Below, piece by piece: positions 1-34,312 of a DNA stretch of 64,000 nucleotides. Position 1 is the stretch's first letter. Every line of letters begins with the position of its first letter. The DNA is from Lactiplantibacillus songbeiensis (GTDB taxonomy: Bacteria > Bacillota > Bacilli > Lactobacillales > Lactobacillaceae): assembly GCF_005405125.1 (NCBI RefSeq), contig NZ_BJDL01000010.1, positions 1 to 64,000 of the forward strand, written 5' to 3'. The notes below the pieces were generated by a model that saw only the letters and a program-made list of their open reading frames with translations, did no database searches and had not been told where the DNA came from. Both the position numbers and the translations under genes were made by a program.

Positions 1-108
1 CGTTGTAACGATGACCGATTAGGAGCCATGAATATTGCAATGCTTGGGCAAGACTGGTTGAACGGTGTCAAGCACCCCAAAATTAAGAAGCTAACAACTG
101 CTGGGTAA
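1..108 (+). CDS. tnpB: TnpB, C-terminal end (truncated by window edge)
   Basis: The first 35 codons are open from the window edge to a TAA at 106-108. They read RCNDDRLGAMNIAMLGQ and end KKLTTAG. The C-terminal NDDRLGAMNIA stretch is characteristic of the RuvC III region of TnpB (OrfB of IS200/IS605 elements), where the Asp is a catalytic residue. TnpB is an RNA-guided nuclease that keeps the element in place. The rest of the gene lies outside the window, so completeness and the presence of TnpA cannot be judged. Confidence 0.8.
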   Translation, partial: RCNDDRLGAMNIAMLGQDWLNGVKHPKIKKLTTAG

Positions 109-405: not shown

Positions 406-434
406 TTGACAAGCCGCAATAAACTTGGTAAATT
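406..434 (+). promoter_or_regulatory. Promoter of the serine operon
   Basis: TTGACA at 406-411 and TAAATT at 429-434, 17 bp apart, match the sigma-A consensus. They lie about 30 bp before the leader peptide start. Between 246 and 405 I see AT-rich sequence and no gene. Confidence 0.7.
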
Positions 435-465
435 GGGGGCATACGAAATCAAAGGAGTGGTCAAG

Positions 466-534
466 ATGTTTATGAACCAAAATGCCAATTTAATCGTCTC
501 CTCCTGGTCAACACAATCATCTGTGTCGGCCTAA
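466..534 (+). CDS. Serine-rich leader peptide (22 aa)
   Basis: A short ORF starts at ATG 466, with AAAGGAG at 451-457 as ribosome binding site, and stops at TAA 532. Its second half reads SSWSTQSSVSA, so codons 12-21 hold six serines, in a leader that directly precedes serC and serA. Amino-acid-rich leader peptides of this layout act as translation sensors in attenuation, as in the his, thr and trp leaders of enteric bacteria. The inferred role is ribosome stalling when charged seryl-tRNA is scarce. It is too small for ordinary annotation. Confidence 0.75.
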   Translation: MFMNQNANLIVSSWSTQSSVSA

Positions 535-649
535 TTTCGTGTAAACACTAGCCCGAACATGGATGTTAACCAACATTCAATGATGAGGGCAGTTATTCTA
601 TTTGACGTTAACAGTCCTCGTGGTCATCTGACCATTGGGACTTTTTTTA
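535..649 (+). promoter_or_regulatory. Attenuator of the ser operon: antiterminator and terminator
   Basis: A terminator is plain. AGTCC (613-617) and TGGTCA (621-626) pair with TGACCA (629-634) and GGACT (638-642), followed by seven T (642-648). A competing pairing is visible: GGATGTTAAC (561-570) can pair with GTTAACAGTCC (607-617, one bulged G), which would occupy the 5' arm of the terminator. A small hairpin, ATGTT (563-567) with AACAT (572-576), could sequester the upstream antiterminator strand. TCGGC at the end of the leader ORF can pair with GCCCGA at 551-556. The fold and its coupling to the leader peptide are inferred. Confidence 0.65.
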
Positions 650-683
650 TAGCTAATTTTAATAATGAAAGTGGGAACTTTTA

Positions 684-1787
684 ATGACAACTTATAACTT
701 TGCAGCGGGTCCCGCCGTTATGCCGAAACCCGTAATTGACCAAATTCAAGCTGAACTACCGTCGTTCCAAGGTTCTGGCATGAGTATTATGGAAATCTCA
801 CATCGCTCCGCCCTCTTCGATCAAGTTATCAATGACGCCGAAGCGGATCTGCGTGAGTTACTGGGGATTCCAGCTAATTATCGCGTGCTCTTCTTCCAAG
901 GTGGTGGCACCTTGCAATTCACCGCGGCACCTTTAAATCTAGCCACGAAGCATCACCACATTGGGCTATTAGATAGTGGGCATTGGGCGAGTCGGGCAGC
1001 CGATGAAGCCCGGCGCGTTGGTACTAAAGTTGATATTCTTGGCACGGCTGCGGACAATCACTTCACGGCACTACCAACACTGGAGCAGCCAGTTGATCAA
1101 GCCCTCGACTACGTGCATCTCACGACTAACAATACGATCGAAGGCACGGCGTACACGACGCTCCCACAAACAGGTAATGTTCCGTTGGTGGCAGATATGT
1201 CGTCAAACTTTTTAGGCCAACAGTATCAAGTGACCGACTTTGGCATGATCTTTGCCGGCGCCCAAAAGAACTTAGGCCCCGCCGGATTAACGATCGTCAT
1301 TATCCGCGATGACCTGATTGGCCAGGCACAAGATTTACCAAGTATGGTCGATTACCAACTCTTCGCCGACAAGCGTTCAATGTTCAACACGCCACCCGTC
1401 TTTGCTATTTATGCGGCCGGATTAGTTTTGAAATGGTTAAAAGCCCAAGGTGGTTTAGCCGCAATGGAACAGCGCAATCGTGACAAAGCCGCGTTGTTAT
1501 ATGACTTCTTAGACCAATCAAAACTCTTCACAAGTCACGTCAAACCCGCTGACCGCTCGTTAATGAACATGCCATTTGTCACTGGTAAACCGGCATTGGA
1601 TGCCCAAGTCATCGCGGGCGCCACGGATCGTGGGCTCTTAAACTTAAAGGGCCACCGGTTAGTCGGCGGTATGCGCGCCAGTCTGTATAACGCCATGCCG
1701 AAAGCCGGGGTCCAAGCACTAGTTGATTATTTAGCTGATTTTGAAGCGACTCATGCCAAGGAGGAATTGACCGATGTATCAAATTAA
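684..1787 (+). CDS. serC: Phosphoserine aminotransferase
   Basis: SerC uses glutamate to aminate 3-phosphohydroxypyruvate to O-phosphoserine, the second step of serine synthesis, with PLP in the cytoplasm. The N-terminus NFAAGPAVMP and the motif GAQKNLGPAG (about residue 193), whose Lys binds PLP, are typical. The length of 367 aa is normal for the family. The reading frame follows the attenuator at 613-649 and overlaps serA by 14 bp, which indicates translational coupling. No SerB (phosphatase) is visible in the window. Confidence 0.93.
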   Translation: MTTYNFAAGPAVMPKPVIDQIQAELPSFQGSGMSIMEISHRSALFDQVINDAEADLRELLGIPANYRVLFFQGGGTLQFTAAPLNLATKHHHIGLLDSGHWASRAADEARRVGTKVDILGTAADNHFTALPTLEQPVDQALDYVHLTTNNTIEGTAYTTLPQTGNVPLVADMSSNFLGQQYQVTDFGMIFAGAQKNLGPAGLTIVIIRDDLIGQAQDLPSMVDYQLFADKRSMFNTPPVFAIYAAGLVLKWLKAQGGLAAMEQRNRDKAALLYDFLDQSKLFTSHVKPADRSLMNMPFVTGKPALDAQVIAGATDRGLLNLKGHRLVGGMRASLYNAMPKAGVQALVDYLADFEATHAKEELTDVSN

Positions 1788-2943
1788 AACTTATAATGCG
1801 ATTGCGCAAGCTGGTCTGGATGCCTTTACAACCGATTATCAATTAAATCAAAGTGACGAACCGGATGCTTATTTGATTCGCTCCGTTGATCTGCACCACC
1901 AAGCTTTACCAAAATCCCTCAAAGTCATCGCCCGGGCCGGTGCTGGGGTAAACAATGTGCCCTTAGAGGCTGCCACGGCGAACGGGACTGCCGTCTTCAA
2001 CACGCCCGGTAGCAACGCCAACGCGGTCAAAGAATTGATTATTGCGCTTCTGATAATCGCGTCACGCAACTTGATGGCTGCGGCCAACTACTCCGCCCAA
2101 CACACGGAAGCCGATGTCTCACAACGGACAGAACACGATAAGACGAAGTTTAACGGCACTGAATTATTAGGCAAGACCCTGGCTGTCATTGGCTTAGGCC
2201 ACGTCGGCTCTCTGGTCGCTAATGCTGCCCTAGGTCTCGGGATGCACGTTATCGGTTACGACCCATATTTGTCAGCCGACGCTGCTTGGAACATTGCCAA
2301 ACAAGTCCAACGCGCCGATAGCATCGAAACTGCCGTTAAAAACGCAGATTATGTCACTGTTCACGTACCTAAAGAAGAAGACACGTTAAACTTACTAGGC
2401 GCTCCTGAGCTGGCCGCAATGCAGCCACAAGTCCAACTGTTTAATTACTCGCGGGGTGGGATTGTCGATAACGGGGCTGTTTTGGATGCCTTAAAAGCCG
2501 GCAGACTCGCACATTATTACACCGACTTTGGTGAGCCACGAATAGCTAATCACGCTGATATTACCGTCACGCCACATATTGGCGGGTCCACCATTGAAGC
2601 CGAGGTCAACGGGGCCACACAAGCTGCTCAGACGATTATGACCTATTTGGAGACTGGCAATGTTCAATATGCGATTAATCTGCCAACGTTAAACGTGCCC
2701 TTCAATGCTGCTTATCGCTTCACTGTCATCCATCAAAACGTGCCTAATATGGTCAGCCAAATCACGCAAAAGTTAGCCGCCGCCGGATTAAACATCGCCA
2801 CGATGGCTAACGCTGCCAAGAAGCAGACCGCCTACACGATTATTGATGTTGATGACTTGGATCACGAAAGCAGTCAACAACTTATCGACGCGCTAAATAA
2901 AATTCCGGCAGTCAATCGCGTCCGACTGTTAATCAATCACTAA
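1774..2943 (+). CDS. serA: D-3-phosphoglycerate dehydrogenase
   Basis: SerA oxidises 3-phosphoglycerate with NAD+ and is the entry step to serine. The 389-aa protein has the D-2-hydroxyacid dehydrogenase fold: a Rossmann motif GLGHVGSLVA near residue 142, SRGGIVDN near 226 and the catalytic His in TPHIGGST near 268. A C-terminal ACT-like domain (about residue 315 on, RFTVIHQNVPNMVSQI) is the usual place for serine binding. An AAGGAGGA ribosome binding site lies inside the serC 3' end. The short form, without the extra ASB domain, suits Firmicutes. Confidence 0.92.
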   Translation: MYQIKTYNAIAQAGLDAFTTDYQLNQSDEPDAYLIRSVDLHHQALPKSLKVIARAGAGVNNVPLEAATANGTAVFNTPGSNANAVKELIIALLIIASRNLMAAANYSAQHTEADVSQRTEHDKTKFNGTELLGKTLAVIGLGHVGSLVANAALGLGMHVIGYDPYLSADAAWNIAKQVQRADSIETAVKNADYVTVHVPKEEDTLNLLGAPELAAMQPQVQLFNYSRGGIVDNGAVLDALKAGRLAHYYTDFGEPRIANHADITVTPHIGGSTIEAEVNGATQAAQTIMTYLETGNVQYAINLPTLNVPFNAAYRFTVIHQNVPNMVSQITQKLAAAGLNIATMANAAKKQTAYTIIDVDDLDHESSQQLIDALNKIPAVNRVRLLINH

Positions 2944-32448: not shown

Positions 32449-32711
32449 CACAACAACTTAATTAATGAACGTTACGTCCCCTCCCAAGTAAAACAATAGC
32501 TGAGCGTCAGGAAGTCGGTGGTTGCTGCGAACCGATCAGGCTAGTTGCTTTGAAATACGGGGGATCACGTCCGGATACGTCCGGCGGTTAATAACTAGAC
32601 CCGTTACCTTGCTAGTGAGTGGAAAAGTCTTCGGATTTTTCAAGCTGGGTGGTACCACGGTCCAATCAATCGTCCCTGTTGTCTTTATTGACAACAGGGA
32701 CGATTTTTTTG
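32449..32711 (+). promoter_or_regulatory. T-box riboswitch leader
   Basis: The hallmark TGGGTGGTACCACGG is at 32646-32660, just before a strong terminator (32669-32711: ATCGTCCCTGTTGTC with its complement, then T-run). Upstream is a long Stem I with apical GTTGCTGCGAACC and the loop-E parts AGTA (5') and GAA (3'). T-boxes sense uncharged tRNA and allow read-through. The specifier region reads GAAATACGG. UAC (Tyr) is my preferred codon, but the exact register is uncertain and AUA (Ile) is possible. Confidence 0.9.
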
Positions 32712-32914
32712 TTTTAACTTTGTTGGTTTGGTTTACATTGCCGCTACAGTTAGGCTGGATTGATCAAGAAAGTTCAAAATCAATAATGTTATCTGTCATA
32801 TGACATCAATCATAGTCGCAGTGACTAGCAGGTCTGCCCCATCGCGAACCTGTTGGTCAACGAAGACGGGCAACTTAACACCAACTACAATTATAAATTT
32901 TGGAGGAATGTACA

Positions 32915-34312
32915 ATGAAAAAGCAACGACCATGGCGACCAGTGAGTTTACCGGAAGCTTTAATTGTTTTATTAATCATGTTAGCCATCATGGGCTTAGG
33001 CGTCATTAAGTTTGGCCTTTCACCACAAACACCGGTGATTTTAGTGATTGCGCTAGTTATCCTATGGGCGCGGATTCGGGGTGCCGCTTGGGATGATATT
33101 CATGGCGGCATCATTGAAGGGATTAAGACTGGGATCATTCCCATCTTTATCTTCTTACTGATTGGGGCCTTAATCAGTGTCTGGATTGCGGCCGGAATTA
33201 TCCCCTCAATGATGGTATTTGGCTTTCACCTCATCTCAGCACAATGGTTTGTGCCCTCAGTCTTTCTGGTCTGTGCCATTATTGGGACATCCATTGGGAG
33301 TGCCTTTACGATTATCTCAACAATTGGGATCGCCCTTTTCGGGATTGGGACAACCATGGGCATCAACCCGGCCTTGATCGCCGGAGCCATTATTTCTGGG
33401 GCCATCTTTGGTGATAAGACCTCGCCGTTATCTGACTCCACCAACTTGGCTGCCGCGATCGCTGAAAGTGATCTGTTCAGTCATATCCGTAACTTGATGT
33501 GGTCGACAATTCCTGCGTTTATTGTCTCTTTAATTGGCTACACGATTCTCGGGATGGGCGCCGCAACTGAGACCCATCTCGGCAAAATCAACACCACGTT
33601 AGCCGTCTTAAATCAGCATTTTACCATCAGCTGGTGGGCCGCCTTACCGTTAATCTTGATGCTAGTCTGTGCCGTACGGAAAATTCCCGCGATTGCCACA
33701 TTATTAATGAATATTACTTTAGCGATTGTGATGATTTTTATTGAACACCCACACATTGCCATCAGTAAAATCGCGACAATGGTTGAAACTGGCTTCGTTG
33801 CTAAAACTGGGAACGTCGGCGTTGACCAATTACTCTCGCGTGGTGGGATTAGTGCCATGATGGGGACCGTTTCCCTAATCTTACTGACCCTGTCGTTAGG
33901 TGGCTTGCTAATGCAGTTTAACTTGATTCAAACCGCAATGGTGCCCTTAGCTAAGCGATTAAACAACAGCGGTTCGACCGTTACCGCCGCCATTTTAGCC
34001 GGAATTGGCGTTAATATCTTCGTTGGAGAACAATACTTATCTGTGATTTTGCCAGGGAAAGCTTTCAAAAAGACGTTTAACGACCAAGGCCTAGCGAACC
34101 TAGCCTTAAGTCGTGTGCTGGAAGATGGCGGGACCGTCATTAACTACTTGATTCCTTGGGGCGTGGCCGGGGCTTTTGCCGCTAACACGTTAGGTGTCTC
34201 AACCTTAGCTTACTTACCATTTTGCTTCTTCAGCTTACTTTCACCAGTCTTCTCCATTATTAGTGGATTCACCGGTTGGGGACTCAAGCGTCAACCTAAA
34301 GCGACGGTTTAG
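32915..34312 (+). CDS. NhaC-family transporter under T-box control
   Basis: I start this at ATG 32915 after TGGAGG, giving 465 aa with about twelve membrane segments. The motif SDSTNLAAAIAESDLFSHIRN is characteristic of NhaC-type sodium/proton antiporters. The T-box leader argues for an amino-acid link: NhaC relatives behind tyrosine T-boxes have been proposed as amino-acid transporters. Tyrosine uptake is inferred from the tentative specifier. No other gene is in this transcript before the next start at 34423. Confidence 0.85.
   Translation: MKKQRPWRPVSLPEALIVLLIMLAIMGLGVIKFGLSPQTPVILVIALVILWARIRGAAWDDIHGGIIEGIKTGIIPIFIFLLIGALISVWIAAGIIPSMMVFGFHLISAQWFVPSVFLVCAIIGTSIGSAFTIISTIGIALFGIGTTMGINPALIAGAIISGAIFGDKTSPLSDSTNLAAAIAESDLFSHIRNLMWSTIPAFIVSLIGYTILGMGAATETHLGKINTTLAVLNQHFTISWWAALPLILMLVCAVRKIPAIATLLMNITLAIVMIFIEHPHIAISKIATMVETGFVAKTGNVGVDQLLSRGGISAMMGTVSLILLTLSLGGLLMQFNLIQTAMVPLAKRLNNSGSTVTAAILAGIGVNIFVGEQYLSVILPGKAFKKTFNDQGLANLALSRVLEDGGTVINYLIPWGVAGAFAANTLGVSTLAYLPFCFFSLLSPVFSIISGFTGWGLKRQPKATV

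Follow-up and report, generated by a model that had tools for sequence, protein, structure and literature searches.

A serine-codon leader before serC-serA in Lactiplantibacillus songbeiensis is a candidate ribosome-mediated transcription attenuator

We analyzed a 64,000-nucleotide (nt) stretch of DNA from Lactiplantibacillus songbeiensis (NCBI RefSeq assembly GCF_005405125.1, contig NZ_BJDL01000010.1, positions 1 to 64,000 of the forward strand; hereafter the window), and in particular the leader that precedes the serine biosynthesis genes serC and serA at its 5′ end. The window opens with about 400 bases that hold few long open reading frames (ORFs), followed by a promoter, a short leader ORF, a terminator, serC and a serA-like gene (Table 1); we use the name serA because TIGR01327 is the best NCBIfam match of the latter gene and because of its position after serC. 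An earlier note, made from the letters alone, had described a 22-codon ORF with six Ser codons in ten positions and a good ribosome-binding site, and we find both, with the Ser codons at 499, 502, 508, 517, 520 and 526; the binomial probability of at least six Ser in ten codons is 8e-6 if a probability of 0.06 per codon is assumed. The terminator with T-run that it placed after this ORF is likewise present (stem 613-642, -17.0 kcal/mol, the whole terminator extending to 648), and an internal mismatch in the stem is the probable reason that a simple scan flagged no terminator here. A similar promoter lies 10-60 nt upstream of the leader in 18 of 20 members of the genus and in 80 of the 102 leaders described below, compared to 33 of 102 in one shuffled set.

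Table 1. Positions of the features of the serC-serA leader and its genes within the window.
Feature	Position	Strand	Basis
Sigma-70-like promoter: -35 TTGACA (406-411), spacer 17, -10 TAAATT (429-434)	406-434	+	10/12 matches; TG ahead of the -10 hexamer
Shine-Dalgarno sequence of leader ORF, AAGGAG, 8 nt ahead of ATG	452-457	+	Sequence reading
Serine leader peptide ORF, 22 amino acids, MFMNQNANLIVSSWSTQSSVSA then stop	466-534	+	Translation; leader conserved before serC
Putative sensing codons Ser-Ser-Trp-Ser (UCC UCC UGG UCA)	499-510	+	Ser conservation in aligned leaders
Segment A; partner A'	506-515	+	Pairing, covariation, swap test
Segment A'; partner A (via 522-531) or B; extends into stop codon	518-533	+	Pairing, covariation, swap test
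Segment B; partner A' (549-565) or B' (551-567)	549-567	+	Pairing, covariation, swap test
Segment B'; partner B (572-590) or C (580-594)	572-594	+	Pairing, covariation, swap test
Segment C, 5′ arm of terminator; partner B' (610-624) or C' (613-625)	610-625	+	Pairing, covariation, swap test
Segment C' (630-642) plus T-run (642-648), intrinsic terminator	630-648	+	Stem present; T-rich tail
serC, phosphoserine transaminase	684-1787	+	NCBIfam TIGR01364, 465 bits, over cut-off
serA-like D-3-phosphoglycerate dehydrogenase, 14-nt overlap with serC	1774-2943	+	NCBIfam TIGR01327 PGDH, 254 bits, under equivalog cut-off of 454

The leader is widely conserved in front of serC. We searched for SerC in Lactiplantibacillus genomes (20 of 21 with a match) and in 397 Lactobacillaceae genomes that include this genus (172 with a match at E<=0.001, a few of them weak or partial), and took the DNA upstream of serC from 149 of the 172. 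A leader finder that asks for a short ORF with a ribosome-binding site and a Ser core, such that Ser counts are partly built in by selection, found a Ser-codon leader at 102 of these 149 loci, compared to 8 of 149 reverse complements and 4-7 of 149 in each of five shuffled sets. Conservation across Lactiplantibacillus was the test named in the earlier note, and indeed the leader stands at 20 of 20 serC loci of the genus; G007, the one genome of the genus that lacks serC, likewise gives no match to the covariance model of the leader (described below). In all 102 leaders, the best hairpin with a T-rich tail before serC was better than in a shuffled copy of the same stretch, with energies from -11.8 to -32.8 kcal/mol. 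At four loci (L005, L024, L017 and L018) the leader is retained though extra DNA splits it off from serC, leaving gaps of 580, 369, 172 and 167 nt, respectively, between terminator and gene.

We tallied codons in 98 leaders, omitting those without a core anchor (L045, L106, L139 and L140). The core is SSxS, with Ser at 97, 97 and 98 of 98 for its three Ser positions, counts to which the anchor contributes, as it demands S/F and S at two of these three. The first two core codons change nearly solely at the third base (TCC in 80 and 81 leaders, TCA in 9 and 10, TCT in 8 and 6, and Phe in 1 each), and the residue preceding the core is Ser in 58 of 98, encoded by both TCN and AGY codons, and otherwise mostly Val. 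The positions corresponding to the later Ser codons of the window are less constant (Ser at 16 of 94, 52 of 87 and 10 of 29 for 517, 520 and 526). Residue x of the core varies freely: Trp in 68, Leu in 11, Arg in 8, Lys in 8, Gln in 2 and Gly in 1. This distribution bears on two other explanations. First, the leader might sense tryptophan, or a general slow-down of translation, through its single Trp codon or through the ribosome as such; the 68 leaders with Trp in the core fit this idea, but the other 30 have another residue there and retain the flanking Ser, and the downstream genes make serine, so that we consider this explanation extremely unlikely. Second, the peptide itself, rather than slow decoding, might stall the ribosome, as with the arrest peptides TnaC and the Erm leaders. 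An arrest peptide might well show such a short, conserved core, whose position with respect to the hairpins does not change, but the residues around the Ser codons and at x vary, as does the length of the leader (16-27 codons), and we give this reading next to no weight.

The choice of Ser codons argues for a sensor of serine supply. The 102 leaders use 447 TCN and 40 AGY codons, compared to 54 and 38 in five ORFs of the window (P = 7e-14, a value that is too small since the leaders are kin). Under serine starvation of Bacillus subtilis, ribosome density rises at UCN and not at AGC/AGU (PMC3862929); because TCN is preferred here, the leaders favor the codons expected to be sensitive to starvation. 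Part of the preference is fixed by the RNA, because the third Ser codon sits inside arm A.

Downstream of the Ser codons, the leader can adopt two mutually exclusive folds. From the sequence comparison, the five pairings are a cascade of the his-operon type, in which A:A', B:B' and C:C' would form in the stop state and A':B and B':C in the go state. We examined these pairings in an alignment (A2) of 80 of the 102 leaders, from which 22 had been omitted by hand, 19 of them near kept rows and three (L062, L139 and L140) divergent. In the terminating fold 91.3% of cells are paired, with 200 changes on both sides of a pair, compared to 58.2 in shuffles and at most 81 when the pairing is slid; in the antiterminating fold 83.4% of cells are paired, with 144 such changes, compared to 50.5 in shuffles and a maximum of 85 for slid pairings. 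By coarser counts of the antiterminating fold, 11 of 500 shuffles match the number of pairs with both-side changes and 2 of 500 match the number of further pair types. We also applied a swap test, which leans less on the pair columns and compares the duplex energy of a segment with its own partner to that with partners from other genera, using 77 of the 80 rows (in three g13 rows, g denoting a genus here and below, B is misplaced). The own partner beat the mean foreign partner in 58 (A:A'), 72 (A':B), 71 (B:B'), 74 (B':C) and 77 (C:C') of the 77, and none of 400 derangements among genera equaled the own partners for any of the five pairings, while the control pairings A:B and A':B' were equaled by 185 and 37 of 400.

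These results change the antiterminator. The pairing proposed in the earlier note, 561-570 with 607-617, can form (-10.8 kcal/mol), but its covariation score is equaled by 88 of 500 shuffles. What stood of that proposal is a Ser-codon ORF followed by an attenuator with two covarying folds; what did not is the antiterminator, which is instead 580-594/610-624 (backed, more weakly, by the alignment of the genus as well), freed by 518-533/549-565. This added layer would make the leader a six-segment, his-type cascade. A further pairing in the predicted fold of the window, 441-449 with 534-542, was set aside, being kept only in part across the genus.

The ORF and the hairpins are also held in a fixed relation, in that 80 of 80 aligned leaders place the start of segment A in one and the same register with the reading frame of the ORF, a result partly built in by the choice of ORFs by their Ser codons. 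A ribosome covers about 12 nt beyond the first base of its A-site codon. With this assumed footprint, a ribosome paused in the window leader at codon 12 or 13 would lie over A without touching A', and at codon 15 it would reach the initial bases of A'; at the stop codon, it would mask A' in 79 of 80 leaders. On this geometry, sensing would fall to the first three Ser codons alone (499, 502 and 508); a ribosome at 517, 520 or 526 would sit over A', which would explain which Ser codons are conserved.

We considered that a metabolite riboswitch or a T-box might govern serC-serA, with the ORF incidental, given a structured leader with a terminator at its end and a genome in which T-boxes are common (38 candidates, 15 of them over the family cut-off). 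An Rfam scan of 380-700 found no family, the lone chance match being a plant snoRNA (E=2.8), and the leader had no match up to E=5 to the His, Trp, Leu and Thr leaders of Rfam or to the serC motif RF00517. As the earlier note had held, there is no T-box at the leader: the RF00230 model had no match there, and the T-box sequence pattern is in none of the 149 serC upstream regions, and the T-box explanation is accordingly rejected. With no Rfam family that fits, and with an ORF, a ribosome-binding site and a register to segment A that are conserved and first two Ser codons that change at third bases, we consider a riboswitch or T-box very unlikely. Nor was a T-box found before serC in the 20 leaderless loci tested of the 47. 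A tRNA gene upstream of some leaderless serC loci might have provided a link to tRNA-Ser; this was ruled out, since the gene is a tRNA-Leu (CAG) gene, found at nine loci (L141-L149; g7, g17 and g2) of 14 scanned. Both serS genes of this genome do have a T-box immediately upstream (L160 684-886, and L179 1501-1687 on the minus strand; one under the cut-off), so that two RNA systems answering to seryl-tRNA probably coexist in it. One T-box candidate lies elsewhere in the window (32465-32680, plus strand; 70 bits, under the Rfam gathering score), before a gene of the Na+/H+ antiporter family (32900-34312).

We conclude that the serC-serA leader is very probably a transcription attenuator of the his-operon type, mediated by the ribosome and responsive to serine. 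Sequence comparison provides the grounds: a conserved ORF, its choice of Ser codons, covariation in all five pairings, a register between ORF and hairpins that stays fixed, and the terminators. We infer where transcription starts, that the leader is translated, that ribosomes stall when serine is short, and that read-through follows. In the proposed mechanism, transcription would begin near 441 and a ribosome would translate the leader. With ample seryl-tRNA, the ribosome would reach the stop codon (532) and cover A', in which case B:B' would form, C would be left free for C', and RNA polymerase would halt at the T-run. With seryl-tRNA short, the ribosome would pause at the first Ser codons (499, 502, 508), covering A and leaving A' largely free; A':B would then form and release B' to pair with C, no terminator would form, and serC-serA would be transcribed, much as histidine and tryptophan genes are classically controlled in gut bacteria.

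We examined this mechanism with a folding model of 98 leaders, which gives the probability that C pairs upstream before C' is made as a function of ribosome position. In 95 of 98 leaders, moving the ribosome from the stop codon to the second core Ser raised the probability of upstream pairing of C; the means were 0.81 at that Ser, 0.54 at the stop codon and 0.66 with no ribosome. In stepwise folding of the window, a stall at Ser13 gave A':B with the RNA end at 578 and A':B plus B':C with the RNA end at 628, and a mask at the stop codon gave B:B' with the RNA end at 600.

Several observations weigh against the proposed attenuation. In the window itself, the upstream pairing of C barely differs with ribosome position (0.73 at Ser13, 0.71 at the stop codon, 0.70 with no ribosome), and the genus means for stalled and stop positions are 0.82 vs 0.71 in g1 and 1.00 vs 0.99 in g24, with practically no difference in g24. 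With the RNA end at 628, equilibrium favors B':C under the stop-codon mask and without a ribosome alike; since equilibrium in the window favors B':C, the off state in this species must rest on the order of folding, B:B' first. This dependence is the weakest link of the mechanism. Moreover, the conservation of the third Ser codon can stem from arm A, which contains it. Finally, 47 of the 149 serC loci have no leader, chiefly in g31 (14), g23 (8), g34 (7), g3 (7) and g17 (5), and the terminators of L139 and L140 (g17) lie 35 nt past the stop codon, seemingly too near for B:B'. The Ser leaders at these two loci read MTVFTFNLASSSTQSLV and MTEFKVNLASSSTQSLV, respectively, and are possibly a shorter design without B:B'.

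To describe the distribution of the leader, a covariance model (R1) was built from 42 of the leaders. At E<=7e-8 it matches 101 of the 397 family genomes, namely 100 of the 172 with a SerC match and 1 of the 225 without (G054, a Val leader), and recovers 98 of the 102 leaders (missing L106, L119, L139 and L140); a further strong match, L246, proved on reading to be a Ser leader before serC. At E<=0.001 it matches 129 of 397 genomes, 28 of them with weak matches only (4e-6 or worse), and the weak matches inspected (L243 and L244 of the 28, and a second match, L247) are not Ser leaders; likewise, none of the three inspected among seven weaker matches in the window's own genome (E=8e-4 and worse) is a Ser leader. 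Among 395 genomes of the order, family members included, which were searched with stricter filters, neither of the two strongest matches outside the family (L242 and L245; E=3e-7 and 1e-5) is a leader. The 20 serC upstream regions examined from the order's other families yielded no short ORF that combines a ribosome-binding site with a cluster of Ser codons, and no Rfam match. Among named records, of which 38 of 80 were examined, we saw the leader upstream of serC in Lactiplantibacillus, Companilactobacillus, Lentilactobacillus, Secundilactobacillus, Agrilactobacillus and Periweissella beninensis, as well as in Lacticaseibacillus pantheris (700 nt upstream), Ligilactobacillus equi, Limosilactobacillus ingluviei and a record named Lactobacillus ruminis; three Enterococcus records and one Floricoccus record yielded no leader, and one Streptococcus record has an unrelated ORF. 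One record carries a name from outside Lactobacillaceae, Faecalicatena absiana, and holds a Ser leader with hairpins (L298 1330-1600) and a serA-like gene after serC; either transfer or a fault of the label would account for it.

Leaders of similar build precede certain permeases. In G054, a family member without a SerC match, a Val-rich leader, MLLRTNSEFNITEQVVVVVSVLD (VVVVVSV), stands before an amino acid permease (Pfam AA_permease; L241:240-500), and two permease paralogs in the same genome (L351 and L354) are preceded by an Ile-rich leader of 39 amino acids and a WWW leader. Each of these three is then followed by a terminator of CCTCAC...GTGAGG style, like that of the serine leader; three other G054 permease paralogs examined have no such leader. 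Eight more relatives of the permease were taken from other genomes (six g24, one g37 and one g31, the last of which, L363, was left out). Among the six g24 permeases (L364-L366 and L368-L370), five are preceded by a short ORF with C-D-C-C (CDCCK) and then a terminator, and the more divergent L368 has CC instead, two of the six having been read by eye; these ORFs are possible cysteine leaders. The g37 relative has no such leader. These permease leaders are single observations or close relatives, read from the sequence. It is possible, if rather short of probable, that Lactobacillaceae hold an unrecognized modular family of his-type attenuators beside their T-boxes, with a common scaffold that a codon change retargets to serine, valine, isoleucine, tryptophan and perhaps cysteine.

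At the start of the window (1-108, plus strand) lies the C-terminal piece of an ORF truncated by the window start, RCNDDRLGAMNIAMLGQDWLNGVKHPKIKKLTTAG, which has no Pfam match and which looks like the C terminus of a TnpB-like protein of the kind associated with transposons.

In Lactobacillaceae, the control of amino acid genes is usually ascribed to T-boxes, 291 of which are counted in 15 genomes in PMC3766115, and a T-box survey finds these elements upstream of serS in almost every Firmicute that it covers (PMC2494555). No serine leader peptide is mentioned in the portions at hand of this survey, of PMC3766115, whose subject is regulatory RNAs, Lactobacillaceae included, of PMC1262725, on actinobacterial leader peptides, and of PMC8632094, on new RNA motifs that include a Cys leader. 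We found no serine leader-peptide attenuator in searches of an open-access library, in agreement with the earlier note; one may be described in subscription papers on Firmicute attenuation. The mechanism would be of a known kind, ribosome-mediated attenuation, in a serine version that appears new relative to that library. Here, a genome with dozens of T-box candidates, one of them per serS gene, appears to use coupled translation for serine synthesis, giving two RNA ways of reading one tRNA pool within one cell; the leader would be a covariation-backed candidate serine sensor in a group of food and probiotic bacteria, and an instance of preference for TCN codons sensitive to serine starvation. 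If the attenuator works, transcription and translation in these bacteria must be coupled closely enough for attenuation. The Val, Ile and Trp leaders of G054 possibly belong to an unrecognized attenuator family beside T-boxes.

In the his operon, the pairings of His_leader are AB/CD/EF versus BC/DE. The serC leader shares with this leader of enteric bacteria its six segments, two exclusive sets of pairings and a terminator at the end, and differs in the amino acid (serine rather than histidine), in its hosts (Lactobacillaceae) and in having no match to an Rfam leader family up to E=5. Within Firmicutes, leader-peptide attenuation has been described for leucine in Staphylococcus aureus (PMC5794164) and for branched-chain amino acids in Listeria (PMC5864092). 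Rli60 likewise attenuates through a leader peptide and the ribosome in a Firmicute, but for branched-chain amino acids, with segments 3 and 4 described as the terminator, and in other families. Histidine leader peptides of hisS and hisZ are predicted in bacilli in PMC2965389, which terms regular leader peptides in Firmicutes noticeable and places a T-box at hisS in lactobacilli; these too would be leader peptides in a T-box's stead, but they are predicted for histidine and for tRNA ligase genes, and the main text lacks the word serine. The serC motif RF00517, listed in a table of PMC3766115, shares the name of serC and is another RNA family, with no match at the leader. In Paenibacillus polymyxa, serA is under a serine T-box (PMC8002221); this element differs from the serC leader in that it binds uncharged tRNA directly and has no leader peptide, and resembles it as an RNA switch upstream of a gene for serine synthesis, one that responds to the state of tRNA-Ser.
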